NCBI GenBank assembly: GCA_027858895.1
Contig: JAQIBX010000023.1
Span: 1-55,490, forward strand
Reading direction: 5' to 3'
Source of the DNA: Desulfuromusa sp.
GTDB lineage: Bacteria > Desulfobacterota > Desulfuromonadia > Desulfuromonadales > Geopsychrobacteraceae
Length of the DNA stretch: 55,490 nucleotides
Below, in pieces: positions 3,577-31,298 of the stretch. Position 1 is the first letter of the stretch, and each line of letters begins with the position of its first letter. Under the pieces are notes generated by a model. It saw only the letters and a program-made list of their open reading frames with translations. It had not been told where the DNA came from and did not search any database. Both the position numbers and the translations under genes were made by a program.

Positions 3577-4471
3577 TCAATGGCAGTTGCAATCCTACAT
3601 GAAAGAGCGAATTCAACTGATTGACTTAGCCCTTGATCGTTATTTACCTGGAGCTGAAACTCTTCCAACCGTGTTGCACGATGCGATGCGCTATTCTGTC
3701 TTTGCCGGGGGGAAACGGATTCGACCGATTTTAATGTTGGCAGCGTGTGAAGCCGTTGGTGGTGAGGTGAAAAACGTGATGCCGGCAGCCTGTGCCATCG
3801 AAATGATTCATAGTTATTCTTTGGTTCATGATGATCTGCCGGCGATGGATGATGATGATTTACGGCGGGGGAATGCAACGAATCACAAAGTTTATGGCGA
3901 GGCTACGGCAATTCTGGCCGGTGATGGGTTGCTCACGGAAGCATTTATCCTTCTTTCTAATCCGGATACCTGGGGTGATGCTCCAGCGGATAAGTACTGT
4001 GAAGTGCTGCATATCCTGGCAAAAAGTGCCGGCTCACGCGGCATGGTTGGTGGTCAGGTAGTTGATATGGAAGCGGAAGCAAAGCCAGTTGATTTGCCCA
4101 CTCTGGAATATATCCATACACATAAAACCGGAGCGTTGATCTTGGCAGCGATTGAAATTGGTGCTTTATTGGGGGGAGCATCTGAACAACAACACCGTGC
4201 GCTCTGTCGTTACGGAGAAGCGGCCGGACTAGCGTTTCAGGTTGCCGATGATATTCTTGATATTGTCGCGGATCCGTCTCAGCTGGGTAAGGATATTGGC
4301 AGTGATCAGCAACGCGGAAAAGCAACTTATCCGGCATTACTCGGATTGGCTGGAGCACGCCAGCGTGCCAGCGAGCTTCGCGAGTTAGCTTTTTCTTCAC
4401 TGGATATTTTTGGTGACTCTGCGCGCCCACTGCGGGAGATAGCAAGTTATATTGTTAACCGATCTTGTTAG
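3566..4471 (+). CDS. ispA: short-chain polyprenyl diphosphate synthase (farnesyl/geranyl diphosphate synthase)
   Basis: Condenses isopentenyl diphosphate with allylic diphosphates to make C15 or C20 precursors. The 301-residue protein has the first aspartate-rich motif LVHDDLPAMDDDDLRRG (about 87-102), with the DDxxxxD spacing typical of bacterial FPP synthases, the GGKRIRP substrate site (about 48) and the second motif QVADDILD (about 228). ATG 3566 is preferred over the longer frame because a GGGAG ribosome binding site sits just before it and the extra N-terminus is only translated xseB sequence out of frame. It lies between xseB and dxs, as in many proteobacteria. Exact chain length cannot be read from sequence. 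Confidence 0.93.
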   Translation: MSSDQWQLQSYMKERIQLIDLALDRYLPGAETLPTVLHDAMRYSVFAGGKRIRPILMLAACEAVGGEVKNVMPAACAIEMIHSYSLVHDDLPAMDDDDLRRGNATNHKVYGEATAILAGDGLLTEAFILLSNPDTWGDAPADKYCEVLHILAKSAGSRGMVGGQVVDMEAEAKPVDLPTLEYIHTHKTGALILAAIEIGALLGGASEQQHRALCRYGEAAGLAFQVADDILDIVADPSQLGKDIGSDQQRGKATYPALLGLAGARQRASELRELAFSSLDIFGDSARPLREIASYIVNRSC

Positions 4472-4517
4472 AGTCTTAGTTTGATTCTGAAATGAATGTT
4501 TTACGCGAGGAAGCTGA

Positions 4518-6419
4518 ATGGAAACACTTCTTTCACAAATAAAGTCCCCCACCGAACTGAAAAAACTCGATAAGAACCAGCTTTCACAGTTGGCAGAAGA
4601 ATTGCGCGAGCAGATTGTTGCGACGGTTGCTACTAACGGTGGACATTTAGGTAGCTCTCTTGGGGTTGTCGAACTGACAATCGCATTACATCGAGTTTTT
4701 GATTCACCCAGTGATCAGATTATCTGGGATGTTGGCCATCAGGCCTATGCCCATAAATTACTGACTGGTCGTCAGGATCAATTCGGTTCATTGCGCCAGT
4801 TAAATGGTCTCAGTGGATTTCCAAAGCGGGCTGAAAGCGAGCATGATTGTTTTGGAGTCGGCCATTCCAGTACCTCGATATCTGCAGCATCGGGCCTGGC
4901 TGCAGGAAGGGATATCTGCGGTGTTCACGATAAGGTTATAGCAGTGATCGGGGATGGTTCATTGACTGCCGGAATAGCATTTGAAGGTTTGAATCATGCC
5001 GGGCATCTGAAACAAAAACTGATTGTTATTTTAAATGATAATGAGATGTCAATTTCCCCGAATGTCGGTGCTCTTTCCTCATTTCTCAGCAGGAAAATGA
5101 CTTCAAATACTTTCATCCGCTTTAAAAAGGAGACAGAGACTCTGCTTAATTACGTTCCTGGAATTGGTCGCGAACTGGTCAATCTGGCTAGGCGAGCTGA
5201 GGAATCGTTCAAAAGCTTTATGACACCGGGAATGTTGTTTGAGGGGTTTGGTTTCGATTATTTCGGTCCCATAGATGGGCACAATATTGAGGAAATGACG
5301 GAAACCCTACGTAACGTTAGTCAAATCAAAGGTCCGGTGTTGTTGCATGTCCAGACGAAGAAGGGCAAGGGGTATGAGCCGGCAGAAAAGAATCAACCCA
5401 AATTCCATGGTGTGGGTCCGTTTAATTCCGAGACGGGAGTGGTGAATGGTAGCAAGCCAGGAAGCGCCAGTTCTTACACCAAAGTGTTTGGCGATACTCT
5501 GACTGATATTGCCTGTGAGGATGAGCGAATTGTTGCCATTACTGCGGCCATGGCTGAAGGAACCGGACTGAAGAAATTCTCAGAAACTTTTCCGGACCGA
5601 TTTTTTGATGTTGGCATCGCTGAACAGCATGCTGTAACTTTTGCTGCTGGATTAGCCTGCCGGGGGCTTCGCCCGGTCGTAACAATTTACTCCACCTTTA
5701 TGCAGCGGGCTTATGACCAAGTTGTGCATGATGTCTGTTTGCAAAATCTTCCGGTGACCTTTGCAATGGATCGATGTGGACTGGTTGGAGCGGATGGACC
5801 AACGCATCACGGCGTGTTTGATCTTTCTTTTTTACGCCATATCCCCAATTTGACTTTTGCAGTGCCGCGTAACGAAGTTGAACTTCAGCGTATTATAAAA
5901 ACAGCCAGTTTACTAGAGGGACCTTTTGCCTATCGTTACCCGCGAGGCAATGGGATCGGATTGTCTTTAGCTGAAAAAATTGAATCGCTGGAAATTGGAC
6001 AGGGAGAATTGCTGCGCAATGGGCCTGATGGTCTGATTATTGCCGTTGGCGAAATGGTTAATGAAGCGTTTCAGGCGGCAAATCAACTCGCCGGGAAGGG
6101 GATTGATCTTTCAGTCATTGATGCCCGCTTTGTTAAGCCTTTAGACCGCGATTTGATTTTATCTCAGGCTGCAAAGGCCCCATTTATAATGACTGCTGAA
6201 GAAAATTCTTTACAGGGTGGATTCGGAACCTCGATTCTTGAACTGTTGAGTGATGCCGGCTTGGCCGTACCCGTGATCCGGATTGGCATTCCTGACCATT
6301 TTGTCGGTCAGGGTACCCAAGCGGAATTGCGCGCTCAATTAGGGCTTGATGCTGCGGGTGTCATGAATAAAGTTGAACAGATTATGCAACAATATAGCCC
6401 AAAAGTTACTGCAGGTTGA
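4518..6419 (+). CDS. dxs: 1-deoxy-D-xylulose-5-phosphate synthase
   Basis: Thiamine-diphosphate enzyme that joins pyruvate and glyceraldehyde 3-phosphate, the first step of the MEP isoprenoid pathway. The 633 residues match the usual length. Visible motifs are [29 protein letters not shown], the ThDP-binding [18 protein letters not shown] ending in [13 protein letters not shown], the [17 protein letters not shown] transketolase segment, and a C-terminal transketolase domain. A GAGGAAG ribosome binding site precedes ATG 4518. It follows ispA by 46 bases, so the cell makes isoprenoid precursors from one transcript. Confidence 0.97.
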
Positions 6420-16260: not shown

Positions 16261-18771
16261 ATGTTTAAGATCAGTCTGCATAAAAAAGTTCTTGGGGCTT
16301 TTCTGCTGCTCTCTTTGGTTCCACTGGGCATTTTGTTGTTCTCCTCCCAACACAGTTTGCGGCTGGTTGAGGATTTATTGCGCCAAAGGACAACCGAGGC
16401 TCTGGACAATCAAGCGGCCAAAGCTCTTGAACATCGAGCGCAGATGGTTGCAACGCAGGTCTCTACCTTTTTACAAGAGATCGAAGGCGACCTGCTCGAT
16501 TTGTCTTTATTGCCGACGACTGAGGAATCTTATCTTGGTTTTAGTCGCAATCATCAACGTGAACTCTGGTATCGCCATGGCACCAATGACAATCCGGTTG
16601 AAATACGGGAAGATGCTCTTCTTTACAGTGAACTGGCCTATGTCGATGGTAACGGTCGTGAATTGATCCGCATTGTTGCTGGCCAACCATCAAGCCAATA
16701 TCGTGATGTTTCCGACCCAGCCCAGACGACTTACAAGACCGAAACTTACTTTAAGCAGGCGGCACAATTAGAGACAGGAAAAGTTTGGGTTTCTCGACTG
16801 CATGGCTGGTATGTCAGTCGTGACGATCAGCTGCAGGGAGCCAAAAACCCACTCGAAGCGGTACAGGGTACGGTCTATCGTGGCGTGATCCGCTTTGCCA
16901 CTCCGATAATGAAAAATGGAAATCTCCAGGGGGTCGTTGTCTTATCCCTCGATCATCGTCATTTGATGGAATATACTCAGCATATTTCGTCGATTGGAGA
17001 TAAGGACATTGTCTTTCCTTCCTATGCCAGTGGCAATTATTCCTTTATGTTTGATGATCAGGGCTGGATGATTACTCATCCCAAATATTGGGATATCCGT
17101 GGTTATGACTCTGCTGGGCAGTTGGTGCCCGCTTATAACTCTGAGACGCCGGAAAAGGATATTCAGTCGGGGCGTATTCCCTTTAATCTGTTCTCTGCCA
17201 GTTTTATCCATCCCAGTTACCCTCTCGTAGCTGAAGCTATTTTACATGGAGAATCCGGGGTTGTTGAAGCGGTCAATGTTGGCGGATCCAATAAAATCAT
17301 GGCTTATGCCCCCATCTATTATGAAGAGGGGGTATATCGGGATCATAATATCTTCGGCGGCATTACAATCGGAGCTGAAATTGATCAATTTCATCAGCCG
17401 GCAGTCGCGACTTCTCTTTTGATTCGAAGTGAAATCAATAATTATCTGAAGCAATCCTGGCTGCTGATTTCTTTGACGGTCATGTTTGTGATTGCGACTG
17501 CCTATATCCTATCTGACAGCATTGTCAACCCGGTTTTGTTGCTAACAGAAGGTACCCGGCGGTTGATTCGTGGCAATCTATCCCCCGTAGTTAAGGTTAA
17601 CTCCAATGACGAAGTCGGGGTGTTAGCTGATTCATTCAATACGATGGTTGATGAATTGAACAGCAGGCGGCGGCGATTACTACAGACGTTGCAAGCACTA
17701 CGGCAATCGCGTAAAGAAATTATTCGCGAGAGAAATTTTAAGAATACCGTTTTTGAAAATATCGAAACCGGACTGCTCACTTTTGATATGGACAGCAAGG
17801 TCACTTCTGCCAATGGGCCTGCCTGTCAGATATTGGAAATAGATCGCCCTGGTAAGGATTGCAGTTGGAAAAAATTGTTGGTTGAGTGGCCTGAATTGCA
17901 TGAAGTTCTTGGTCAGTGGTTTTTGTCAGGTAAAACAGGTGAAAGTAGATCTTTCCGGAAGTATATCTCGCTGGAAAGAAAAGGGCGGACACTGACTTAC
18001 CGAATGGCCATGTTTCCGCTGAGTTTTCGCCAGCAGGAAGGTTGGTTGCTGACTATTGAAGATCTGACTGAACGTGTCAATTTGCGTCAGCAGATGGCAC
18101 GGATGGATCGTTTGGCTTCTTTAGGCAGAATGTCAGCCGGTATCGCTCATGAAGTTCGCAATCCCCTGACCGGAGTCAGTCTGCTTCTGGATGAACTGCA
18201 TGACCGTTTACTTGGTCAGGAAAATGATCAACAGCTGATTCGTCGTGCCTTGGGTGAAATTGAGCGATTGGAATCGCTGGTGAATGAGATGTTACATTTT
18301 TCGTCGTTGCCAACTCCAAAGCTTGCTTATGGCAGAATTGAAAAAGTACTCCAGGATTCCCTGTTTCTAACTCGTACACAATGTTTACGGCAAAATGTTA
18401 AGCTGATTGAACACGTCGCTGACAACCTCCCGGAACTGACGATGGATGCAGATCGGGTCAAGCAGGTCTTGTTGAATTTACTGAATAATGCTTTAGATGC
18501 CATGCCGGATGGCGGAGAATTGAAAATTGCTGTTGAAACCAGTAATGATGAAATATTAATTCGTGTGACTGATACCGGAGTTGGTATCCCCCCAGAGCAG
18601 CTGCCATTGATTTTTGAGCCGTTCTTTACCAGTAAAGGGCAGGGGACAGGGTTGGGACTGGCGATAAGTTATAATATTATCTCCGATCGTGGTGGTGAAA
18701 TTCAAATAGAAAGTAAGCTGGGTGTCGGTACAACTGTGTTGGTTTCACTGCCGATAAACCCGATTGGCTGA
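16261..18771 (+). CDS. membrane sensor histidine kinase (periplasmic sensor, HAMP, PAS, HisKA, HATPase)
   Basis: An 836-residue kinase. TM1 is at about 10-28, a large periplasmic Cache-like sensor spans 30-395, TM2 is at 399-417, HAMP is at 418-470 and a PAS domain at about 490-600. The phosphoacceptor is His630 in AGIAHEVRNPLTGV; the ATP-binding N box is LLNNALDAMPDGG (740s), with G boxes DTGVGIP and GTGLGLAIS. The sensor lacks the YxxxxRxWY amino-acid signature seen in the kinase at 29172, so the ligand is unknown. It is followed 45 bases later by an NtrC-type regulator, its evident partner. Confidence 0.93.
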   Translation: MFKISLHKKVLGAFLLLSLVPLGILLFSSQHSLRLVEDLLRQRTTEALDNQAAKALEHRAQMVATQVSTFLQEIEGDLLDLSLLPTTEESYLGFSRNHQRELWYRHGTNDNPVEIREDALLYSELAYVDGNGRELIRIVAGQPSSQYRDVSDPAQTTYKTETYFKQAAQLETGKVWVSRLHGWYVSRDDQLQGAKNPLEAVQGTVYRGVIRFATPIMKNGNLQGVVVLSLDHRHLMEYTQHISSIGDKDIVFPSYASGNYSFMFDDQGWMITHPKYWDIRGYDSAGQLVPAYNSETPEKDIQSGRIPFNLFSASFIHPSYPLVAEAILHGESGVVEAVNVGGSNKIMAYAPIYYEEGVYRDHNIFGGITIGAEIDQFHQPAVATSLLIRSEINNYLKQSWLLISLTVMFVIATAYILSDSIVNPVLLLTEGTRRLIRGNLSPVVKVNSNDEVGVLADSFNTMVDELNSRRRRLLQTLQALRQSRKEIIRERNFKNTVFENIETGLLTFDMDSKVTSANGPACQILEIDRPGKDCSWKKLLVEWPELHEVLGQWFLSGKTGESRSFRKYISLERKGRTLTYRMAMFPLSFRQQEGWLLTIEDLTERVNLRQQMARMDRLASLGRMSAGIAHEVRNPLTGVSLLLDELHDRLLGQENDQQLIRRALGEIERLESLVNEMLHFSSLPTPKLAYGRIEKVLQDSLFLTRTQCLRQNVKLIEHVADNLPELTMDADRVKQVLLNLLNNALDAMPDGGELKIAVETSNDEILIRVTDTGVGIPPEQLPLIFEPFFTSKGQGTGLGLAISYNIISDRGGEIQIESKLGVGTTVLVSLPINPIG

Positions 18772-18816
18772 GATGATATTTAGCTGGTTCAGATATTTAA
18801 ACCAGGAGTAAGTGCT

Positions 18817-20184
18817 ATGGAAAAAATTCTTATCGTTGATGATGAAGCGTTTATCCGGGAAAATTTGGAACGGATTATTGCTGAAGATGGTTACCGGCCT
18901 ATTACAACCGAATTTTCAGATGAGGCGATCCGTATTGTCTCTGAAGAAGAAATTAGCCTGGTGCTGCTTGACTTGAATCTTGGCAATAACAGTGGTCTGG
19001 ACGTATTACGTGCGATGCGTGAAGTTGATCCTGAAATTTTGGTGATTATTATTACCGGCTACGGAACGGTAGAGAGTGCCGTTGATGCGTTGAAAATAGG
19101 TGCCTATGATTACATTAAAAAGCCGTTCAAAGCTGATGCGATTCGTTTGATTGTTAAGCTGGCATTGGAAACTCAAAATCTGCGCCGTAAAGTCAAGCGC
19201 CTGTCCCGTGACGCTGATGGCATTAATATGGTAGGAACCAGTCTGCCGCTATTGCATATTTTTCAGCAAATCCGCGAAGTGGCTAAGCATGAAACGGCTA
19301 CGGTACTGATTACTGGAGATAGTGGAACTGGAAAGGAACTGGTTGCCCAGGCAATTCATAATTTATCACCGCGCAGTGAGCAGCCTTTTGTCGAAATCAA
19401 TTGTGGATCTTTACCATTTAATCTTCTTGAAACAGAATTGTTCGGGCATGAACGGGGCGCTTTTACTGATGCAAAAAACCGTAAAATAGGATTGTTTGAA
19501 GAGGCTGATGGCGGTTCTATTTTTCTGGATGAGATAGGGGAAATGGATATAAGTCTCCAGGTGAAACTGCTGCGGGTACTGGAAGATCGTAAAATTCGCC
19601 GGCTTGGAGGCAATCGAAATCTCGACATCAATGTGCGGATTATTGCCGCGACCAATGCAGAATTGAAAGGTGCACTTGAGCGCAAGGAGTTTCGTGAGGA
19701 TCTCTACTATCGCCTCAATGTTTTCCCCATTCATATTCCACCACTGCGCGAGAGACGGGAGGATATTCCACTCTTACTCGAGTATTTTTTGCAACGTTTC
19801 AGTAAGGAATTCAATAAGTCAATGCGGGGCTTCAGTCGTGATGCCCTTGATCTTGTCATGCGTTATCATTGGCCTGGAAATGTTCGGGAACTGCGCAACG
19901 TGGTTGAACGAATCTGTATTATGCACAATGTTGAAACGATTATGCCAACCCACCTGCCGCGTGAAATATGGGGTGAGTCGCCACAGAGCGAAATGCCATT
20001 TAATTATGAAATTCCGCCAGAAGGGATTGTGCTGGATGATGTTGTTGGGCAAGTCGAAAAAGAGTTGGTTGAAAAAGCCTTCCGTATTACAGGTGGAAAT
20101 GTAGCTAAAACTGCTCGGATATTGAATGTGCCGCGTGGAACCCTCCGCTATAAGCTGGAAAAATATCAGTTAAGCGGTGACTGA
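18817..20184 (+). CDS. NtrC-family sigma-54-dependent response regulator
   Basis: 455 residues: receiver domain 1-118 with phosphoacceptor D52 (LVLLDLNLG), AAA+ domain about 135-375 with Walker A GDSGTGKE (167-174) and Walker B GGSIFLDEIGE, and a C-terminal Fis-type HTH (GGNVAKTARILNVPRGTLRYKL). The sigma-54 contact loop reads GAFTDA (214-219), a mild variant of GAFTGA. AGGAGT precedes the ATG, within a small hairpin (CTGGTT/AACCAG, 18784-18805). It receives phosphate from the kinase just upstream; targets are not identifiable here. Confidence 0.94.
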   Translation: MEKILIVDDEAFIRENLERIIAEDGYRPITTEFSDEAIRIVSEEEISLVLLDLNLGNNSGLDVLRAMREVDPEILVIIITGYGTVESAVDALKIGAYDYIKKPFKADAIRLIVKLALETQNLRRKVKRLSRDADGINMVGTSLPLLHIFQQIREVAKHETATVLITGDSGTGKELVAQAIHNLSPRSEQPFVEINCGSLPFNLLETELFGHERGAFTDAKNRKIGLFEEADGGSIFLDEIGEMDISLQVKLLRVLEDRKIRRLGGNRNLDINVRIIAATNAELKGALERKEFREDLYYRLNVFPIHIPPLRERREDIPLLLEYFLQRFSKEFNKSMRGFSRDALDLVMRYHWPGNVRELRNVVERICIMHNVETIMPTHLPREIWGESPQSEMPFNYEIPPEGIVLDDVVGQVEKELVEKAFRITGGNVAKTARILNVPRGTLRYKLEKYQLSGD

Positions 20185-21391: not shown

Positions 21392-22669
21392 TTACCCGAC
21401 CTCAGCCAATGATCGCTCTAAAATATCAAGTCCTTCTTCAAGTTGCTCATCTGGGATGGTCAACGGTGCCAACAAGCGCACGGTGTTCCCATAAATACCA
21501 CAGGAGAGCAAGATCAAACCATTTTCCAGCGCTTTGGCGGTCAGCTGTTTGACTTTGTCGGCATCGGGACTGTGTCCACCTCGCTCCTTGACCAATTCAA
21601 AGGCGACCATTGCTCCCAGGCCACGAATATCACCAATAGCTGCCGTGTCACTCCGTTCTTTCATCTGCTGAATCCGCTCAATCATCCGTGCACCGATTCG
21701 GTTGCTGCGGGCGCAGAGTTGCTCTTCTTCGATAATATCAAGGACTGCATGTGCTGCCGCGCAGCCGATCGGGCTACCACCGTAGGTTCCACCTAAGCCA
21801 CCAGGCTCCGGAGAGTCCATGATCTCTGCCTTGCCAATCACCCCGGAAAGTGGAAAACCGCCGGCTAGTGATTTGGCGATAGTCATCAGGTCCGGTTCGA
21901 TTTCTGCGTATTCGCAGGCAAAGAGTTTTCCGGTGCGTGCGAACCCTGATTGCACTTCGTCACAGATCAACAAAATGCCATGTTTGTCACAGAGGGCACG
22001 CAACGCTTGCAAGAATTCTTTTGAGGCGATGTAGAAACCACCTTCGCCCTGCACCGGCTCAATAATAATCGCAGCTACCTGCTCAGGTTCGACATCGGCT
22101 TTAAATAGCTTTTCCAGCGCTGCGAGACTGTCGGCCTCGCTGATTCCGTGGTGTTCGATAGGGAATGGCACATGATAAATTTCGGCCGGAAAGGGTCCGA
22201 ACCCGGTTTTATAGGGTGCCACTTTGCCAGTCAGTCCCATGGTCAAGAGTGAGCGACCATGAAACGCACCGACAAAAGAAACAATGGCAGACCGTTTGGT
22301 GTGATAGCGGGCAATTTTGACCGCATTTTCAACGGCCTCTGCACCTGTGGTCATGAAGATGGTTTTGGCTTTTTTGATTGGAGCCAACTTATTGAACCGC
22401 TCTGCCAGGGCAACATAACTTTCGTAAGGTACGACCTGAAAAGCGGTGTGGACAAACGCCTCATTCTGCTTTGTAGCAGCAGCCATAATCTTCGGATGGC
22501 GATGTCCAGTGTTGCAAACTGAGATGCCAGCAGCAAAATCGAGATAACGGTTACCCTCAACATCCCAGACTTCTGCATTTTCAGCTTTTTCGACAAACAC
22601 TGCTGTTGCCGATGCAACCCCGCGAGGAATGGCGGCATTGCGACGGGCAAGTAGTTCGAGATTGGACAT
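21392..22669 (-). CDS. gabT: class III PLP aminotransferase (4-aminobutyrate aminotransferase-like)
   Basis: Transfers an omega-amino group to 2-oxoglutarate using PLP. The 425-residue protein matches GabT: GISVCNTGHRHPK, TGAEAVENAVKIAR (about 108), FHGRS, ICDEVQSGFARTG (PLP-ring Asp237), the Schiff-base Lys266 in TIAKSLAGG, and GGTYGGSP. AAGGGAAA precedes the ATG. It is the last gene of the livKHMGF run, 28 bases after livF, so it probably acts on the amino acid that the transporter imports. GABA, 5-aminovalerate, beta-alanine or ornithine-like substrates cannot be told apart from sequence. Confidence 0.88.
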   Translation of the reverse strand: MSNLELLARRNAAIPRGVASATAVFVEKAENAEVWDVEGNRYLDFAAGISVCNTGHRHPKIMAAATKQNEAFVHTAFQVVPYESYVALAERFNKLAPIKKAKTIFMTTGAEAVENAVKIARYHTKRSAIVSFVGAFHGRSLLTMGLTGKVAPYKTGFGPFPAEIYHVPFPIEHHGISEADSLAALEKLFKADVEPEQVAAIIIEPVQGEGGFYIASKEFLQALRALCDKHGILLICDEVQSGFARTGKLFACEYAEIEPDLMTIAKSLAGGFPLSGVIGKAEIMDSPEPGGLGGTYGGSPIGCAAAHAVLDIIEEEQLCARSNRIGARMIERIQQMKERSDTAAIGDIRGLGAMVAFELVKERGGHSPDADKVKQLTAKALENGLILLSCGIYGNTVRLLAPLTIPDEQLEEGLDILERSLAEVG

Positions 22670-22697: not shown

Positions 22698-23411
22698 TTA
22701 AAGACCCAAAAAGGCCTTTTTGATATGGGGATCGCCCATCAACTCAGCGCTGGTTCCCTCCAGCACCACCTGCCCCTGCTCCATAACGTAGGCTCGGTCA
22801 CTAATTGCGAGAGAATTAACCACGTCTTGTTCAACTAGCACGATGGTGGTTCCATGTTCATCAGTAATCTTTTTAATTGCCGCAAAGATATCTTTCTTCA
22901 ATACTGGAGCCAGACCCAGTGAGGGTTCATCCAGCATCAGAATTCTGGGCTCGGCCATCATGCCGCGACCGATGGCAACCATCTGTTGTTCACCACCACT
23001 CAAGGTTCCGGCAAGCTGCTTCCCCCGTTCCTGCAGGCGTGGAAAGAGCTGATGCACCGCCTGTAGATTTTTCTCAAAATTTGGCTCGGCTCGTTTGCTA
23101 TAGGCACCCATTTCGAGGTTTTCATATACAGTCATCAGCGAAAAAAGTCTCCGCCCCTCGGGAATATGGATCAACGCCTGCTCGACAATTTCATCGGGGC
23201 TCATCCCGCTGATGGTTTCACCGGCAAATTGGATCGATCCGGCACTGGGAACAATCAACCCGGAGATGGTCTTCAGCAGGGTTGATTTTCCCGCCCCATT
23301 GGCGCCGATAATACTGACAACCTCCCCTTCCTTGACCTGCAAGGAGATATCCAGAAGAACCTGAATTTCGCCGTAGCCCGCGCTGATTTTATCAATGTTG
23401 AGTAGCGACAT
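22698..23411 (-). CDS. livF: branched-chain-type amino acid ABC transporter ATP-binding protein LivF
   Basis: ATPase subunit of a HAAT-family importer. Walker A is GANGAGKSTL, the signature is LSGGEQQMVAIGRGM, and Walker B is ILMLDEPSLGLAP, all in the LivF pattern. The frame extends to 23480, but GGGAG lies six bases before ATG 23411, giving the usual length of about 237 residues. The start overlaps the end of livG by 20 bases, so the two are translationally coupled. Confidence 0.93.
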   Translation of the reverse strand: MSLLNIDKISAGYGEIQVLLDISLQVKEGEVVSIIGANGAGKSTLLKTISGLIVPSAGSIQFAGETISGMSPDEIVEQALIHIPEGRRLFSLMTVYENLEMGAYSKRAEPNFEKNLQAVHQLFPRLQERGKQLAGTLSGGEQQMVAIGRGMMAEPRILMLDEPSLGLAPVLKKDIFAAIKKITDEHGTTIVLVEQDVVNSLAISDRAYVMEQGQVVLEGTSAELMGDPHIKKAFLGL

Positions 23412-24123
23412 ATTCATCTCCCAGATAAGCCTTGATAACTTCTTCGTCCGAGACCACGTCATGCGGGTCGCCTTCGGCAATTTTTTTGCCGAAACTTATG
23501 ACATAGATCTTTTCGGAGAGATTCATGATCGCCTGCATGATGTGTTCGACGATAACGATGGTGACTCCGGTTTCGTTGATCTTGCGGATGATTGGCAACA
23601 TTTCGGTGACTTCCTGAGGGCGTAAGCCGGCCATGACTTCATCCAGCAGCAGTAGTTTCGGTTCGGTCGCCAAGGCTCTGGCCAGTTCTAGTTTTTTCCG
23701 TTCCGGCAAGGTCAGACTCTGGGAAACGACATCTCTCTTGTTGTAGAGATCAAGAAATTTGAGCACCTCGATCGCCTTGGTTTCCGCTTCGTGCAGATGT
23801 TGGGTGGTGGCAAAAGCCCCGACCACGGTATTGTAGAGCACGGTCTTGGTGGCAAAAGGTTTAACCACCTGAAAAGTACGGGTCACCCCAGCCTGACATA
23901 TCTGATAAGGCTTCTTTCCGGCTACTTCCTGGCCGTCGAAGAGAATACTTCCCGAACTTGGCGGCAATGCCCCGGCAATACAATTGAACAGGGTGGTTTT
24001 ACCCGCGCCGTTCGGGCCGATAACCCCAACGATCTGCCCCTCTTCGACACTCATACTGACATCGTTAACCGCAATCAAACCGCTGAATCTCTTTGTGACA
24101 TTTTTTACTTCCAGCAAAGCCAT
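23392..24123 (-). CDS. livG: branched-chain-type amino acid ABC transporter ATP-binding protein LivG
   Basis: Second ATPase subunit. Walker A is GPNGAGKTTLF, the signature region is LTLPERKKLELARAL (the LivG-specific variant), and Walker B is LLLLDEVMAGL. The C-terminal tail EVIKAYLGDEY is typical. ATG 24123 with AGGAGTAATTTT before it is preferred over 24201, giving 243 residues. It begins four bases after the livM stop. Confidence 0.93.
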   Translation of the reverse strand: MALLEVKNVTKRFSGLIAVNDVSMSVEEGQIVGVIGPNGAGKTTLFNCIAGALPPSSGSILFDGQEVAGKKPYQICQAGVTRTFQVVKPFATKTVLYNTVVGAFATTQHLHEAETKAIEVLKFLDLYNKRDVVSQSLTLPERKKLELARALATEPKLLLLDEVMAGLRPQEVTEMLPIIRKINETGVTIVIVEHIMQAIMNLSEKIYVISFGKKIAEGDPHDVVSDEEVIKAYLGDEYVATQH

Positions 24124-24127
24124 AAAA

Positions 24128-25171
24128 TTACTCCTGTCTGGCTGATGGATTTGAAGGATCGTCCGCTTTTCCCCGAGCAGGCTTGTGAATAAACCGATCA
24201 ATCAATTTTTTGATCGGTTCGACCAGCCCCTTAGGGTAGTAGCGCATCACGACAATCAAGATCAAACCGAAAATAACCAGATGTAACCCAGGTAGTGAGG
24301 CACCGAGATAGATCCGCGTCAGTTCGCTCACTGGCCGCAGCAGCAGCGCACCCAGCACAGGGCCGAGGATAGTTCCCCGCCCGCCGATCAGAGCAATAAA
24401 AGCAATTTCGAAAGAGAGATCTAGACCCATAATCGATTTCGGGTAGAAATAGAGCATCAGCTGCGCATAAAAAGTGCCGCCCAGTGCGGCCAGAAAACAA
24501 CTAATAGCCATGGCTATTAACTTGTAGCGAGAAACCTTGATCCCTAACGCTTCGGCCGCCTCCGGCTCCTCACCCCCAGCCGCCAGATAATAACCAACCT
24601 TAGAGTTCATCATAAAATAGGTGAGCAGCAGAACCACCAGTAACATGATTAGAATGATGTAGTAGTAAGTTGCCTTACTGCCAAATTGAAAGGTCCAGAA
24701 AGAACTTTCCATCAGCGGCAACGAAATTCCACTTGGGCCGTTGATCTTGAACGGTCCGACCTGCTTGACGTTTTCAAATAGCACCCGCATCCCTTCGCCG
24801 ACGGCGATGGTCGCCAAGGCAAAGTAGGCACCGCGCAGTTTAAGGGTCGGCAGACCAATAATCACTCCTACCAGCGACGCCAGCAAACCACCGACAATCA
24901 TCCCGAACCAGGGGCTAATGCCGAAGGTCTGGAAAAGCACCGTCGAAGTGTAGGCACCAATGCCGATAAATGCTGAATGTCCCAATGGTAACACCCCGGC
25001 AAAACCGCCGACAAAGTTCCAGGTCGAAGTAAAGTAGGCGTAAAGGACAATCAGGATAATAATTTGCATCAACGACGGACTGGTGACTATGAGTGGTAGT
25101 ATAAATAAGGCGCCGAGCAGCAGCGCACTAATCAGCAAAATAATAGGTTTTTGGTTTAACAACTGCTTCAT
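24128..25171 (-). CDS. livM: branched-chain-type amino acid ABC transporter permease LivM
   Basis: 347-residue inner-membrane permease with about ten hydrophobic segments. The GGFAGVLPLGHSAFIGIGAYTS segment and the cytoplasmic loop EAAEALGIKVSRYKLIAMAIS (the EAA-like coupling loop) are diagnostic of LivM. GGGAGAG precedes the ATG. It lies 39 bases after livH and forms the transmembrane heterodimer with it. Confidence 0.94.
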   Translation of the reverse strand: MKQLLNQKPIILLISALLLGALFILPLIVTSPSLMQIIILIVLYAYFTSTWNFVGGFAGVLPLGHSAFIGIGAYTSTVLFQTFGISPWFGMIVGGLLASLVGVIIGLPTLKLRGAYFALATIAVGEGMRVLFENVKQVGPFKINGPSGISLPLMESSFWTFQFGSKATYYYIILIMLLVVLLLTYFMMNSKVGYYLAAGGEEPEAAEALGIKVSRYKLIAMAISCFLAALGGTFYAQLMLYFYPKSIMGLDLSFEIAFIALIGGRGTILGPVLGALLLRPVSELTRIYLGASLPGLHLVIFGLILIVVMRYYPKGLVEPIKKLIDRFIHKPARGKADDPSNPSARQE

Positions 25172-25210: not shown

Positions 25211-26095
25211 TTAAAAGTCCTGTTTCATCCCAAACAATCCGGATGGCTTGACTAGTAAAACAAACAGAAAAACCCCATAAAGAAGTAGTTCTGTCCAGGT
25301 TGATGCCATAAACTGTGCACCGACATTCTCAATGATACCGACAATAATCCCGCCGATAATAGCCCCCGGAATACTGCCGAGGCCCCCAAGAACCACGATG
25401 ATAAAAGCTTTGATGTCAAAGGGAACGCCAACGGTGGGATAGACATAGTAGAAAGGGATCAGCACACATGCGGCCATGCCACAACAAGCGCAGCCCATAC
25501 CGAAAGCAATATTGTAAATTTTTGATTGCTTGATACCCATCAACGAGGCTGCTTCACGGTCGAGGCTGGTAGCCCGAATCGCCTTGCCCATTTTTGAATG
25601 TTTCAGAAACCAGTAGAGATAGATGGCACAGAGAATCGTAATTCCTGCGCCGATAATCTTCGGCAATAAAAAATACATGTCATAAAACTCAAAGATCTTA
25701 CCAGTCACTGAAGTCTTGACGACCCGGTATTCTGCACCAAAAAACAACAACGAGAGGTTATCGAGCACATACCAGATACCGGTGGTAACAATAATAACAG
25801 TGATCGGCTCGCGGACATCTTTCTCCGCTTCAAATATTGGCCTGATGATCCAGCTCTGCATGAAGTAGCCAAAATAAAACAAAAATGGCACCACAACCGG
25901 AATAGCCAGATAAGGATTCAGCCCGGTCAATTTGACAAACCAGTAGGCAGAAAACATACCGACCATAAGAATTGACCCATGGGCAAAGTTGATAACCTTC
26001 ATGACCCCAAAAATCAGGGTCAATCCGACTGCCGTTAGACCATAAATAGAACCCATCAGCACACCGTTGATTAATGCCTCGATAATGCCTAACAT
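25211..26095 (-). CDS. livH: branched-chain-type amino acid ABC transporter permease LivH
   Basis: 294-residue permease with the LivH hallmarks NGVLMGSIYGLTAVGLTLIFGVMKVINFAHGS near the N-terminus and REAASLMGIKQSKIYNIAFGMG as the coupling loop. AAGGAG precedes the ATG. It starts 127 bases after livK, with a strong hairpin in the gap. Confidence 0.94.
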   Translation of the reverse strand: MLGIIEALINGVLMGSIYGLTAVGLTLIFGVMKVINFAHGSILMVGMFSAYWFVKLTGLNPYLAIPVVVPFLFYFGYFMQSWIIRPIFEAEKDVREPITVIIVTTGIWYVLDNLSLLFFGAEYRVVKTSVTGKIFEFYDMYFLLPKIIGAGITILCAIYLYWFLKHSKMGKAIRATSLDREAASLMGIKQSKIYNIAFGMGCACCGMAACVLIPFYYVYPTVGVPFDIKAFIIVVLGGLGSIPGAIIGGIIVGIIENVGAQFMASTWTELLLYGVFLFVLLVKPSGLFGMKQDF

Positions 26096-26222: not shown

Positions 26223-27458
26223 TTACTTCTTTGGCTGGGGAAAAACTGGTGTATAACCAGCTCTGCGGACATTTTTAGGCCAAACGGTAATACGATCCAT
26301 ACCGTCGCCTTTGCTGTTTGTTCGAGTTTGAACAATAACTAAACTGGCATTTTTGTTCTGTCCAGTCTCATCAAAGTCGACACAATCATAAGCCAATAGA
26401 CCTACCATACCACCGCAAACTTTGATCTCAGACAGTGTCTTACGCAGAGCAGCAGGATCAGTTGAACCCGTTTGCTCCAGAGCCTCTTTGATGACATACA
26501 TAGCAGCATAGGCATCAACCGATTCACCGTTCATGTTGTTACCATAGAGCTTCTTGTACTTGTCGTTGGTCTCTTTGAGGCCAGGACGGTTGAGGTCGGT
26601 TTCCCACTCAACAATATCAAACAGATACTCGGCATTTTTACCGGCGGCTTTGAGGAAGGAAGGATCGGCATGACCGCCTCCGCTGGAGATGATCGCTTTC
26701 ACATTGACGCGCATTTCAGCCATGGTGTTGGTCAACAGGATCGCATCAGCAGCGTTCGAGGTCATAAAGACGACGTCGGGCTTGGCGCGCTTCAGTTTAA
26801 TAACCACAGGGGTCAAATCACTAGTGGTACTGGGATAAGGCTCATCAAGAACCACTTCATAGCCGGCCTGCTCAGCAAGGGTCTTCCATTTTTCGGCAAA
26901 ACCAGTTCCCCAATCGCCGTTTTCGTAGACGAAGGCGACCTTTTTAACTTCGACGCCAAACTCCTGCTGCATATCTTTTAAGAACTGAAATTGATCCTTG
27001 GCCCACCAGCCATCTTTGGCAGCTATACGGAAGACATTTTTAAAGCCACGCTCGGTGATGGTGTCACGCACCGAAACCGGAACGATAAAGGGGATACCAT
27101 AGCGTTCAGCAACTTGGGTGGTCGGATAGGTCACTGCGGAGTTCCAGCAACCGGTTAACATGTGAACCTTTTCGCTATTGATCATCCGTTCAGCTTCGGT
27201 TACCCCGGTGGTCGGATCACTTTTACTATCGGAAAACAGAAGCTCCAACTTTGCGCCACCCAACGACATGATTCCGCCAGCGTTGTTGATCTCCTCCAGC
27301 GCCATCTCCCGCGCTTGCTTTCCCTGAATACCAACCGATGCAGATGGTCCAGATAGCGGGATAATATTACCAATTTTGACCGTTTCGGCGGCCTGAACAG
27401 TTCCAACGGTCATTGCTAAGGCAACCATCGGCACAATCAGATTCTTGAACAATTTCAT
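26223..27458 (-). CDS. livK: branched-chain-type amino acid ABC transporter substrate-binding protein
   Basis: 411-residue periplasmic type I binding protein with signal peptide MKLFKNLIVPMVALAMTVGT cleaved after AQA-type residues near 23. The fold motifs are VKIGNIIPLSGPSASVGIQGKQAREMALEEINNAGGI, DSKSDPTTGVTEAERMI, and VAFVYENGDWGTGFAEKW. AAGGAG precedes the ATG. It is the first gene of the transporter operon and lies about 100 bases behind a sigma-54 promoter. Ligand specificity cannot be read reliably; the linked aminotransferase and amino-acid-type sensor kinase suggest an amino acid that need not be branched. Confidence 0.93.
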   Translation of the reverse strand: MKLFKNLIVPMVALAMTVGTVQAAETVKIGNIIPLSGPSASVGIQGKQAREMALEEINNAGGIMSLGGAKLELLFSDSKSDPTTGVTEAERMINSEKVHMLTGCWNSAVTYPTTQVAERYGIPFIVPVSVRDTITERGFKNVFRIAAKDGWWAKDQFQFLKDMQQEFGVEVKKVAFVYENGDWGTGFAEKWKTLAEQAGYEVVLDEPYPSTTSDLTPVVIKLKRAKPDVVFMTSNAADAILLTNTMAEMRVNVKAIISSGGGHADPSFLKAAGKNAEYLFDIVEWETDLNRPGLKETNDKYKKLYGNNMNGESVDAYAAMYVIKEALEQTGSTDPAALRKTLSEIKVCGGMVGLLAYDCVDFDETGQNKNASLVIVQTRTNSKGDGMDRITVWPKNVRRAGYTPVFPQPKK

Positions 27459-27570: not shown

Positions 27571-27587
27571 TAGCAACGGTTATGCCA
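27571..27587 (-). promoter_or_regulatory. sigma-54 (-24/-12) promoter of the liv-aminotransferase operon
   Basis: On the minus strand the sequence TGGCATAACCGTTGCT fits the RpoN consensus TGGCAYRNNNNTTGCW at every fixed position; the -24 GG is at 27586-27585 and the -12 GC at 27574-27573. Transcription would start near 27561, giving a leader of about 100 bases before livK. This promoter class needs an activator ATPase, which is encoded just upstream. Confidence 0.85.
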
Positions 27588-27680: not shown

Positions 27681-27732
27681 ATGTCAACCAAAAACGTCAA
27701 CCAATGTTGACGTTAACTCCACTTATTGACGT
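27681..27732 (-). promoter_or_regulatory. putative enhancer (UAS): four ACGTCAAC-like half sites
   Basis: Four related octamers occur: ATGTCAAC (27681), ACGTCAAC (27694), and inverted copies ending in GTTGACGT (27706-27713) and ATTGACGT (27725-27732). The middle two form a perfect 9-bp inverted repeat, AACGTCAAC-CAAT-GTTGACGTT. The cluster is centred about 120 bp upstream of the sigma-54 promoter, the usual enhancer distance, and starts directly after the regulator gene's stop. Confidence 0.7.
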
Positions 27733-27735
27733 AAA

Positions 27736-29163
27736 TCAGTTGTTTGATTTATCCGACCTGCCTTTATTATTGATCCGTTTATTTAATGCCTGTTTTGATA
27801 TCCCTAACAATTTTGCCGCCTGGCTTTGGTTTTGATTCGTCTCAGTCAAGGCTGATTCTATGGTGAATTGTGTTATCTCTTCTAACGTTGGGAAGTGTTC
27901 AAAAAAAGTCTCTAAGTTACATTTATTATCAGGATCTACAGTCCTTGTAGCCTTAACCGAACCAAGTCGCTCAGCCAGATTGTGATAAGAAATCTGTTTT
28001 GAATCACAGCGCGCCACGGCATCAAATATATAGGTTTTAAGTTCACGGATATTTCCATAAAAGGGAAAGTCCAATAATAACTCTAGAGAACGCCCCCCGA
28101 TATCAGGCTTTTCCTTGCCCATACTTGCCGCAGCTTCAGTCATTAAAAGATCAACCAATAAAGGAATATCTTCGCGCCGCTCTCTTAACGGTGGGACCTT
28201 GATCAGATGGGTGCTCAAGCGATAGTACAGATCTCTGCGAAATCCCCCATTTTTTTCAACCAAAGAGTGATGTGATTTGTTTGTTGCCGCAATAATCCTG
28301 GCTTCACTTTTTTTGGGCTGGTCTGACCCTAATGGATAATAAATCCCTTCCTGGAGCAATCGCAGTAATTTGACTTGCGAACCCTCATTTAAATCCCCGA
28401 TTTCATCCAGAAATAAAGTTCCATTTCGCGCCGTTTCAACCAATCCTGAACGCGGCTTTTCCGCACTAGAGTAGGCCCCCTTTTCATGCCCAAAAAGGGT
28501 ATCTGAAAAAAGGGTGTCATCCAAACCAGAGGCATCAATCGGGATAAATTCACCCGATAACTGACTTGTTTCGTGAACCGCCTTTGCTATTAATTCCTTG
28601 CCAACGCCCGTTTCTCCTAAAATCAACAGGGGTTGTCTGCTCTGGGAAATCGCTTGAATATAATGAAATATTGATTCCATCAAGGAGCTTTTAGTCATAA
28701 TATTTCTAAAACACGCATCGGTGGACAACTGCTTTTGAAAAGAAATCCCCTTGAGGGAGAGAACCTCACTGCGCAATGTATTTATTTCATGGGCGGTTCT
28801 CAAAGCTGATCCAAAGGTGCTCAAATTAATGGGTTTCACCAGATAATCGTGAGCTCCCAGTTTAAGGCACTCTACGGCCGTTTCAATATCTGAATTCGCA
28901 GTACAGACAATAACGGGGATTTGTGGAAATTTTAATTTAATTAGCCGCAAAACATCCTGACCCGAGATATGCGGCATATTGAGATCCAAAAAAACAATTG
29001 GAGAGTCATTTTTTTCAAGGGTGGCCAAGACCTCACGGCTATCGCTAATTGCGGTTATTCTGTGAACCCCCATTGATTCCAATAAAAATTCGTACGCTTC
29101 CAGCTCTGGTACTTCATCATCAACCAGAACGACATGTGGATCCTGCAAACTCAAATCAAGCAT
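27736..29163 (-). CDS. sigma-54-type response regulator with altered GAFTGA loop
   Basis: 475 residues: receiver 8-125 with phosphoacceptor D60 (IVFLDLNMP), AAA+ domain about 145-385 with Walker A GETGVGKE (183-190), Walker [11 protein letters not shown] (248-257) and the arginine-finger stretch [10 protein letters not shown] (308-317), then a C-terminal Fis-like HTH ([20 protein letters not shown], 445-464). The sigma-54 contact loop reads GAYSSA (229-234) instead of GAFTGA, while the ATPase motifs are intact. AGGAAG precedes the ATG. It is coupled to the kinase gene 8 bases upstream and is the obvious activator for the sigma-54 promoter at 27571. Confidence 0.93.
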
Positions 29164-29171
29164 TTTTCTTC

Positions 29172-31298
29172 CTACAACGATGAATGAGGTAATTGAATAA
29201 TAAAAGAAGAACCAACTTCGGTATTTTCAGCCAACAGCTTCCCCTTCATTTCTTTTTCCACTATCACCTTGGCCATATAAAGCCCTAATCCGGTTCCGGA
29301 TGAGGTCCCTTTCGTGGTGAAATATGGATCAAAAATTTTGGGCAACAAATGCACCGGAATCCCCCCACCATTATCTTTTACACAAACCTCAACCAACTGG
29401 TCGTGGGCCGCAATATCAATATCTATAAAACGGTGGCACACCCCTTTTGGCTGCTGCGGTTTTCCCTTAATAGAATCCTTGGCGTTATCCAGAATATTGA
29501 CGAGAACATGAACAAACTCACTTTGATAGCCATCGACAACCAACTCCGTATCACCATTAGACTGATTAACAGAAAGGACAATTTCATTGTGTTCTAAGTG
29601 CGGATCCAGCAACTTGACGGCACTGCGCACAGCAGCAATAATATCAAATGGGTTTTTTTGCTTGGAAGGTCTAAAAAAATGTCGAAAATCATCAATCGTT
29701 TTTGACATAAACTGAATCTGGGCATCAGCGCCAGAGACCATTTTTTCGATATATTCTTTTGAAATAAGATTATTGAAATAGGCAGACTGGATACTTGCGA
29801 CATAAGTTGAAAGGGTGTTGAGTGGCTGCCGCCATTGGTGGGCAATGGCACCAAGCATCTCCCCCATTGCTGCCATTTTTTGAGCCTGCCGAAGCTGCTC
29901 TTCGGCATTCACCCTCTTTGAGATATCCCTGATACTGTAGAGGGTTAATTCCTCCTCATTGAGGTGAAGAACCTTCAGGCCAACTTCCGAAGGGAACTCC
30001 GTTCCATCCAGTCGACTAAATGTCCAGACAAGAAATTGCTCGTCCCCGGCTTCAGAATTTTCGATGACAGATCTGAGCTTGTGGACGCTTTCAATGCCAT
30101 CGGGTTGATACTCAGGCGATAGATCGAGAACACTCCTGCCGAGAACTTCATAACGCCCTCCACCAAACATCCCTTCCGCCCGTTCATTACATTCGACCAA
30201 ATAGAACTTTTTGCACAAAATAATTGCATCATTAGCAACATTAAACAAGGTTTGGTAATAAGCTTCGACCTCTTTTCGTTTGTTGATGTTCCATTTCAGA
30301 TCTTCATTGATTCCCGATATCTCTTCGCGCTGTTTGTCGACAGTGGTTTTAAATTTTCGGCTGAATATCAGCAAGACAAGAGCGCTACCACCGATGCCGA
30401 GTAACGTCACCGAAGCCAGCCCCCCGAGAACCAGGAGAACGACTTCAACCGCCGATAAAATAGTCGCTTTTTGCGTTAAAGCGTAAGCTTCTGTCAGTGG
30501 AACAATGGTACAGAGATACCAGTCGGTATTGGGAACCTTCTGGTAGGACAGAAGATAATCTTCATTCGCTATTTTATCTTGATAGGCAATGGTCCCATGC
30601 GGTAGCTCCTGGGCTTGCTCTGCTTTCCATTTTAAGTCAGGTTCAATTTCCTGCAGCCTTGTTTTCATGACGTAATCGTGATTAGGATGGACCAGGATCA
30701 TGCCGTTTTCTTCAACAATGAAAGCATAACCAGTCTCACCAACTTTTACGTTGGCGATGTTCTCAACCAGGACATCCAATACGGTATCAGCGCTCAGAAC
30801 CCCGATAAAATCGTCATGTTTTTTTAATGGTGTCACCAAGGCAATGACCAGTTCCATGGTTGTCAGATCGATATACGGTTTTGTGACCGCTGTTTGACCC
30901 ACCTCTATAGCTCTTAGATACCAGGGACGGATGCGGGTATCATAGGTTTCCGGAGGCACCCAATCTGCGCCATCAATGATTTTCCCGTCAGGCAACCCAA
31001 TATAAACATCACTGAAGTGTCCTGCTTTCATGGCCATTTTTAACGGGCGCAATGTTTCAGGATTATTGCCGATATTCTCATAATCAATCGAATCAGCCGT
31101 TGCATTCAATATTTTCATCTGTTGATTAAGCCAAGTTTCGATTGTTTTAGCGGTATCAACGGTAAGAACGTGGAGGTGGTCATAAATTGTTTTTTCAACT
31201 AAGGAAGAAGTGCTTCGATAGGTGATGCCAACTGCGGTCAAAATTATTATAGAAAAAATAGCCATCCATATTAATGTATTTTTGAGTTTAAAATTCAT
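29172..31298 (-). CDS. sensor histidine kinase with amino-acid-type dCache domain
   Basis: 708 residues: TM1 8-24, periplasmic double Cache domain about 35-280, TM2 about 285-313, PAS about 345-460, HisKA with phosphoacceptor His487 (GAIAHQWRQPLNTL) and HATPase (NILDNAKDSI at 601, DNGGGIP at 642, GTGLGLYMAK at 668). The sensor carries Y119-x4-R124-x-W126-Y127, then Y142-x-D144 and D171, which is the published ligand signature of amino-acid-binding dCache_1 domains. It heads a two-gene operon with the sigma-54-type regulator. The likely role is to detect an extracellular amino acid and switch on livKHMGF and the aminotransferase. Confidence 0.93.
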   Translation of the reverse strand: MNFKLKNTLIWMAIFSIIILTAVGITYRSTSSLVEKTIYDHLHVLTVDTAKTIETWLNQQMKILNATADSIDYENIGNNPETLRPLKMAMKAGHFSDVYIGLPDGKIIDGADWVPPETYDTRIRPWYLRAIEVGQTAVTKPYIDLTTMELVIALVTPLKKHDDFIGVLSADTVLDVLVENIANVKVGETGYAFIVEENGMILVHPNHDYVMKTRLQEIEPDLKWKAEQAQELPHGTIAYQDKIANEDYLLSYQKVPNTDWYLCTIVPLTEAYALTQKATILSAVEVVLLVLGGLASVTLLGIGGSALVLLIFSRKFKTTVDKQREEISGINEDLKWNINKRKEVEAYYQTLFNVANDAIILCKKFYLVECNERAEGMFGGGRYEVLGRSVLDLSPEYQPDGIESVHKLRSVIENSEAGDEQFLVWTFSRLDGTEFPSEVGLKVLHLNEEELTLYSIRDISKRVNAEEQLRQAQKMAAMGEMLGAIAHQWRQPLNTLSTYVASIQSAYFNNLISKEYIEKMVSGADAQIQFMSKTIDDFRHFFRPSKQKNPFDIIAAVRSAVKLLDPHLEHNEIVLSVNQSNGDTELVVDGYQSEFVHVLVNILDNAKDSIKGKPQQPKGVCHRFIDIDIAAHDQLVEVCVKDNGGGIPVHLLPKIFDPYFTTKGTSSGTGLGLYMAKVIVEKEMKGKLLAENTEVGSSFIIQLPHSSL

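Follow-up and report, generated by a model that had tools for sequence, protein, structure and literature searches.

The window analyzed here is a stretch of 55,490 nucleotides from Desulfuromusa sp. (assembly GCA_027858895.1, contig JAQIBX010000023.1, positions 1 to 55,490), and its subject is a sensor histidine kinase together with the operon downstream of it (Table 1). The kinase gene is followed by a response regulator gene, which starts 8 bp after it on the same strand, then by a 277-bp gap and by genes for a LivJ-type binding protein, LivH, LivM, LivG, LivF and a class III aminotransferase. The periplasmic dCache_1 domain of the kinase carries a complete amino-acid ligand motif, and judged from that motif it very probably binds an amino acid of some kind. 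What lies nearby (transaminase, importer, a sigma54-type site and an array of palindromes) narrows the ligand class further than the 'amino acid' of a preliminary description of this DNA. The kinase is probably a dCache_1AA-type sensor for 4-aminobutyrate (GABA) or a close omega-amino acid that would drive uptake and transamination via sigma54.

Table 1. Features of the kinase locus in the window (TM, transmembrane segment; HTH, helix-turn-helix).
Feature	Position	Strand	Basis or remark
Sensor histidine kinase, 708 aa	29172..31298	minus	TM, dCache_1, TM, PAS, HisKA-like, HATPase_c
Periplasmic dCache_1 domain (residues 35-264)	30507..31196	minus	PF02743, AlphaFold model, PctA superposition
D97 (31010..31008) and D109 (30974..30972)	30972..31010	minus	Orthologue-specific acids; alignment to PctA/PctC
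Amino-acid ligand motif Y119-x4-R124-x-W126-Y127 ... Y142-x-D144 ... D171	30786..30944	minus	Translation, PctA alignment, orthologue alignment
NtrC-like response regulator	27736..29163	minus	Receiver, AAA+ Sigma54_activat, Fis-type HTH
Candidate enhancer array	27683..27730	minus	Half site, palindrome, half site in 277-bp gap
Half site GTCAAT	27730..27725	minus	Part of array
Perfect palindrome AACGTCAA-CATTGG-TTGACGTT	27714..27693	minus	Part of array
Half site GGTTGAC	27689..27683	minus	Part of array
Sigma54 -24/-12-type site TGGCATAACCGTTGCT (1 mismatch)	27572..27587	minus	113 bp upstream of binding-protein start codon
LivJ-type periplasmic binding protein (Peripla_BP_6)	26223..27458	minus	Family match
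LivH-type permease	25211..26095	minus	Family match
LivM-type permease	24128..25171	minus	Family match
LivG-type ATPase	23392..24123	minus	Family match; start set at internal ATG
LivF-type ATPase	22698..23411	minus	Family match; start set at internal ATG
GABA transaminase	21392..22669	minus	Last gene of run, 28 bp after livF; TIGR00700

The kinase matched dCache_1 (PF02743) with 116.7 bits against a curated cut-off of 45, and had two hydrophobic segments at about residues 5-28 and 273-314. Its HisKA match was weak (22.6 bits, below the cut-off of 26.9); H487 lay within HQWRQPL, and the N and G boxes were recognizable. The domain scan of the kinase gave no match to HAMP, and none at E 0.001 to SBP_bac_3, the AgtS-type sensor domain. 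All three domains of the regulator scored above their cut-offs (PF00072 88.4, PF00158 170.9 and PF02954 23.3 bits), and its best NCBIfam model was AtoC at 299.6 bits, under the cut-off of 714. The aminotransferase passed the GABA-transaminase equivalog TIGR00700 (611.5 bits vs. a cut-off of 506.65), with PuuE and GabT enzymes as its nearest solved sequence relatives. The Liv-type subunits reached none of the NCBIfam cut-offs among the models shown (the best 25 for each ATPase). The closest solved relative of the LivJ-type protein was 8WCH, a match that does not settle specificity; structures 3ip5-3ipc, which we take to be the Agrobacterium GABA/proline/alanine binding protein, were also among its relatives.

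All seven residues named in the preliminary description (Y119, R124, W126, Y127, Y142, D144 and D171) were present in the translation of 31298..29172 (-), and their codons, from Y119 at 30944 to D171 at 30786, lay within the span 30785-30945 given for them. The corresponding PctA positions are Y121, R126, W128, Y129, Y144 and D173 as reported in PMC10104139 and PMC11245519; PctA D146 was added from its PctC counterpart, Asp149 (PMC6974571). Every motif residue number in the kinase equaled the PctA number minus two, and the phmmer alignment of the kinase with PctA (5ltx; E 3.4e-30) was ungapped across the whole motif, showing that the match was not due to chance. In a core alignment of nine sequences (the window kinase and eight orthologues), Y119, R124, W126, Y142, D144 and D171 were invariant, and position 127 was F in one sequence and Y in the other eight. 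Against a profile built from the nine, PctA scored 134.0 bits and PctC 101.5 bits. The motif was also kept in four further orthologues (G062, G075, G105 and G089), with F at 127 in G075. Of 22 more distant homologues in this class, with 30-33% identity, 14 had Trp at 119 plus the remaining motif, and eight had Ala or Ser at 144. The complete motif, its PctA spacing and its conservation among orthologues supported the earlier interpretation as a PctA-like amino-acid signature. The residue roles proposed there likewise agreed with those published, in which the carboxylate is held by Arg126 of PctA (Arg129 of PctC) and the amino group by two Asp residues, Asp149 and Asp176 of PctC (PMC6974571).

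Six dCache_1 matches were found in the genome to which the window belongs, and among the columns read the whole motif occurred only in this kinase. It was absent from two of the other proteins (L002 and L003); two more (L005 and L006) had no match to the orthologue profile at E 1e-3, and their motif columns were not counted. Another sensor protein (L004, contig C49) had six of the seven motif residues, with Leu replacing Tyr142. The second kinase of the window (16261-18771, L006) had been described as lacking the signature; a text search indeed found no such pattern in it, and its dCache_1 score of 24.3 bits was under the cut-off of 45. This kinase and a sigma54-type regulator with the loop GAFTDA form a separate pair at 16261-20184 (+).

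The AlphaFold model of the sensor domain, made from the nine-sequence alignment, had a mean pLDDT of 85.3 and a pTM of 0.73. Its top Foldseek matches were Mlp24, PctA and CtaA (best E 1.9e-20). When the model (residues 26-276) was superposed with VIA-align, PctA gave Z 25.1 with a root-mean-square deviation of 2.5 Å over 239 residues, and PctC with bound GABA gave Z 22.4 with 2.2 Å over 209 residues. PctA, CtaA, PctB, Mlp24 and PctC all superposed at Z 22-25, so that the overlay on PctA and PctB suggested at the outset was obtained for both. Alignment and superposition suggest that the motif residues may line the membrane-distal pocket.

Ligand class is indicated by the motif, not by the overall fold in itself. 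The dCache_1AA class is reported to hold more than 10,000 sequences (PMC10104139), and the sensor showed both testable sequence features of this class, the dCache_1 score and the motif. The amine class (dCache_1AM) was tried and rejected, as the domain had no insertion before the pocket relative to PctA and R124 was present and invariant. The purine class (dCache_1PU) was also rejected, with A153 and V155 found instead of Phe and Asp/Asn at PctA positions 155 and 157. The purine sensor McpH has Gly at the position equivalent to D171 according to PMC11245519; D171 was retained in the kinase. It is very unlikely that the motif was merely inherited and that the pocket now serves another class (amine, purine or organic acid). 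The amine-binding family did evolve from amino-acid sensors as described in PMC10104139, so motif residues can outlive their ligand, and a putrescine aminotransferase lies near one orthologous kinase (L013). However, R124, which is not conserved in amine sensors, never varied here and the amine-type insertion was missing, and the purine positions (PctA T155 and A157) held neither F nor D/N, and D171 was kept where McpH has Gly (PMC11245519).

All 13 orthologues, counting the window, had two further acids, D97 and D109, which none of the 22 more distant homologues had and which may be a specificity mark of the orthologue group. D97 aligned with PctA Phe99 and PctC Ser101 (numbering counted from the profile alignment), and D109 fell at the position of PctA Met111. 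In PctA, Phe99 touches the side chain of the ligand; the PctC crystal structure has a hydrogen bond between Ser101 and GABA, which seldom forms in simulation (PMC6974571). PctC is reported to bind GABA, and 5-aminovalerate with a dissociation constant (KD) of 28 μM (PMC10653921); PscC of Pseudomonas syringae binds GABA with a KD of 1.87 μM (PMC9452764). Taking pocket and gene neighborhood together, we lean towards a GABA-type omega-amino acid as the ligand of the sensor.

The main rival ligand would be a basic amino acid, since acids at 97 and 109 would suit an amine near the end of the side chain. The sensor would then respond to ordinary alpha-amino acids, perhaps lysine, ornithine or arginine; the carboxylate would sit on R124/W126, the alpha-amine would be bound by D144/D171 and the distal amine by D97/D109, and GABA or 5-aminovalerate would reach the transaminase as breakdown products. 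Liv-type importers commonly carry alpha-amino acids, which fits this alternative, as do the presence of both acids in every orthologue and in no distant homologue and the place of D97 at the side-chain-contacting Phe99 of PctA. Further, ornithine is bound by both PctA and PctB (PMC10653921). By contrast, it is a GABA transaminase that has stayed with the cluster, the scanned selection of flanking open reading frames (ORFs), which was not all of them, included no decarboxylase, oxygenase or racemase for lysine or ornithine, and the D97 position is compatible with GABA, as the hydrogen bond from PctC Ser101 indicates. Weighing these points, we consider an alpha-amino-acid sensor rather unlikely, if the most serious of the alternatives.

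Fifteen orthologous loci were compared: the window, L007/G005, L008/G012, L009-L015, G062, G075, G105, G089 and G057 (L015 is cut short within the kinase, and the G057 kinase is cut by a contig end). Transporter genes followed the kinase-regulator pair in 13 of the 14 loci other than the window. A Liv-type binding protein followed it in 13/15 loci (window included), the L007 contig holding only its start. In G075, a TRAP importer (DctP-DctQ-DctM) took the place of the Liv-type genes after the pair. A GABA transaminase lay between regulator and binding protein in G089, and a chemoreceptor gene with MCP signaling and HAMP domains (4856-6256) lay there in L014. The steady presence of a binding-protein gene after the pair would also be expected if the sensor recognized no free ligand and the ligand-loaded LivJ-type protein docked on its domain, as happens in some kinases (PMC11113362). 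This we regard as scarcely probable, for the full direct-binding motif is conserved, such neighbors are reported not to have interacted in Pseudomonas aeruginosa (PMC11113362), and the G075 binding protein belongs to an unrelated family (TRAP DctP), yet its sensor (L020) keeps the motif (F127), D97 and D109.

Eleven of the 15 loci (the window, L008, L010, L011, L012, L015, G062, G075, G105, G089 and G057) had a relative of the GABA transaminase within the cluster or in its flank, which makes 10/14 without the window. In L007, L009 and L014 the contig or flank ended too early downstream to judge. The L012 match was in two pieces with part missing, and the L015 transaminase lay about 8 kb from the kinase. 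L013 had a putrescine aminotransferase instead (NF008570, 647.4 vs. 612; TIGR03372, 487.1, below its 658.65). Six of the 11 transaminases were scanned and all passed TIGR00700, with 611.5 bits in the window, 553.8 in L010, 564.9 in L011, 586.6 in L049 (G105), 601.1 in L050 (G089) and 599.0 in L064 (G075); the remaining five were named from identity to the window enzyme. Two transaminase subfamilies, about 81-91% or 43-48% identical to that of the window, occupied different places in the loci, showing that the association was kept or remade. L010 also had a succinate-semialdehyde dehydrogenase above the cut-off (TIGR01780, 697.5 vs. 646.35), and the aldehyde dehydrogenase of L011 (408.0) was below it. 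Aldehyde ferredoxin oxidoreductase genes were seen beside GABA or putrescine aminotransferases in L010, L013 and L049, which suggests that the semialdehyde may be oxidized with ferredoxin in these bacteria.

The 277-bp gap of the window holds the half sites and the perfect palindrome, followed by the sigma54-type site. The latter, TGGCATAACCGTTGCT, was one of two one-mismatch sigma54 sites in the 55 kb; at two mismatches, such sites were not in excess over shuffles in the whole window (31 vs. 31.9). Most orthologues had two palindromes GTCAACC-NN-GGTTGAC 19 bp apart, a half site GGTTGAC and then a sigma54-type site. Palindromes of the form GTCAAC-N4-GTTGAC with at most one mismatch preceded a sigma54-type site in 13/13 readable control regions; G057, in which most of the gap is a run of N, was left out of this count. 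When the 13 loci (256,126 bases) were searched at the same tolerance, 23 palindromes fell in the 8,180 gap bases and one in the remaining 248 kb. For sigma54-type sites, again with no more than one mismatch, the gaps of 11 loci contained 12 and the remaining sequence 16; the gaps of L011 and L048 had sites with two mismatches. The sole palindrome outside the gaps lay at a contig end of G075, before the GABA transaminase of that genome, which had its own sigma54-type site with two mismatches, read from the sequence. G075 (L048, L064) thus has palindromes before its TRAP genes (1 mismatch) and before its GABA transaminase (exact).

The exact palindrome occurred once in the 2.78 Mb of the window's own genome, at this locus, and was likewise confined to the locus in G005, G062, G089 and G105. 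G012 had one extra exact site (G012:C60), with no cluster gene in the surrounding 8 kb read. In G075 it was found at two contig ends, on the left of C71 and on the right of C124; equally oriented stretches recur in both ends, though the match is not base for base all the way. These contigs are probably neighbors and their two exact sites one place, so that the C124 palindrome is probably not a site unlinked to the kinase. Class-wide, all seven genomes with a sensor at least 40% identical had the exact palindrome, each at the locus, compared with 42 of 270 others (Fisher p 3.7e-6); the 270 included G057, with its sensor cut by a contig end, and 17 further genomes with 30-33% identical sensors counted as non-orthologous. 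A reversed control pattern occurred in about 42 of 277 genomes (counted by eye), indicating that 42/270 is background.

The scan called 27714..27693 terminator-like (nine pairs, then TTTGG), as it would be if the window palindrome merely ended the kinase-regulator transcript and the operon were outside the control of the pair. We judge this highly improbable: in most orthologues the two palindromes 19 bp apart and the half site precede the sigma54-type site and usually have no T run, and in G075 the sites stand upstream of the TRAP operon and of the GABA transaminase. From the arrangement of these sites, the transporter operon is most probably under the control of the kinase-regulator pair, and in the window gabT with it.

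From these data we infer the following chain for the GABA-type sensor. The ligand, a free amino acid and most likely GABA or a similar omega-amino acid (5-aminovalerate or beta-alanine, for example), would bind directly in the membrane-distal pocket, its carboxylate on R124/W126 and its amine on D144/D171. Via the second transmembrane segment and the PAS domain, the signal would reach the kinase core (H487), which would pass it to the neighboring NtrC-like regulator. Bound to the GTCAAC-N4-GTTGAC array in the 277-bp gap, the regulator would act with sigma54 to switch on the genes from the binding protein through LivHMGF to GabT, and the sensed compound would be imported and then transaminated. 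The own genome has rpoN (446.7 bits, cut-off 277.35).

Several results weigh against this chain. Amine and purine receptors superposed on the domain model at about Z 20-22; fold similarity does not separate the classes, and the ligand class was therefore not chosen by fold alone. D97 and D109 are two extra acids at side-chain-region positions that GABA does not obviously need. The AgtS kinase of P. aeruginosa, which lies beside GABA-binding proteins, bound none of the ligands tested according to PMC11113362, a warning about guilt by association. In the own genome, no succinate-semialdehyde dehydrogenase scored above the cut-off (best 250.8 vs. 646.35), and two more transaminases of the family lay outside the cluster (86% identical on C106 and 48% on C8), neither with a palindrome at one mismatch or fewer. 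The C106 copy (L066, 5293-6570), a second GABA transaminase, has an integrase-like ORF (3625-4830), identified by eye from the sequence alone, some 0.5 kb away. No palindrome was found before the divergent transaminase in the four loci scanned (L010, L011, L012 and L049), showing that control of the transaminase is not universal; L010 and L011 had a further sigma54-type regulator near it.

In the window itself, the first palindrome is degenerate and the sigma54-type site has one mismatch. The GAFTGA loop is the sigma54-contact loop of sigma54-activating regulators. At this loop (regulator residues 224-234) the window had GAYSSA, compared with GA[F/Y]TGA in 13/13 orthologues, and for lack of GAFTGA the regulator is named NtrC-like only. 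Its reading frame was open. The GAYSSA loop may mean that sigma54 activation has been lost or altered in this species; together with the degenerate first palindrome, it may point to a weakened circuit here.

A more tentative extension, plausible but short of probable, is that the system is a portable cassette. It would comprise a kinase whose pocket is narrowed by D97/D109 to GABA-type omega-amino acids, its NtrC-like partner and a private enhancer, all kept constant, and outputs that are swapped. The enhancer would be the paired GTCAAC-N4-GTTGAC palindromes and half site before the sigma54 promoter, and the outputs a Liv-type ABC importer, a TRAP importer or either transaminase subfamily. If this holds, the kinase would sense GABA and govern a defined regulon of a single locus. 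For the majority of histidine kinases no signal is known; in this case the pocket motif, the retained metabolic genes and an operator almost confined to this locus all point to one small ligand class and one regulon.

No description of this cluster was found in the titles and abstract beginnings of the open-licence papers that the literature searches listed. The sensor class and two-component GABA uptake are already known; for this locus a specific ligand is predicted. In motif, PctA spacing and fold the sensor resembles the dCache_1AA sensors PctA, PctB and PctC of P. aeruginosa, CtaA and Mlp24/Mlp37. It differs from these receptors in being a histidine kinase and not a chemoreceptor, in its identity of about 25-30% in the superpositions, and in having Asp at PctA Phe99/PctC Ser101 and a second Asp at PctA Met111. 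The regulator shares its receiver, AAA+ domain and Fis-type helix-turn-helix with NtrC-family regulators of the AtoC and ZraR types, and departs from them with GAYSSA for GAFTGA. The gab operon of Bacillus thuringiensis is controlled by sigma54 and an enhancer-binding protein, a regulator that is not known to be part of a two-component pair. Metabolic pathways under sigma54 are treated in PMC4428206. The nearest functional parallel is AgtS-AgtR of P. aeruginosa, a two-component system for uptake of GABA and 5-aminovalerate, in which growth on GABA requires agtS as well as the transporter genes (PMC11113362, citing Chou et al. 2014). In both systems a two-component pair neighbors an ABC importer of omega-amino acids, the importer substrate being a predicted one here. 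However, AgtS has an SBP_bac_3 sensor domain that was negative in the ligand screen, and AgtB is a binding protein of the SBP_bac_8 family, as described in PMC11113362, whereas the window has a dCache_1 sensor with a direct-binding motif and a transaminase inside the operon. If the sensor binds its ligand itself, it would provide a cleaner model than AgtS.

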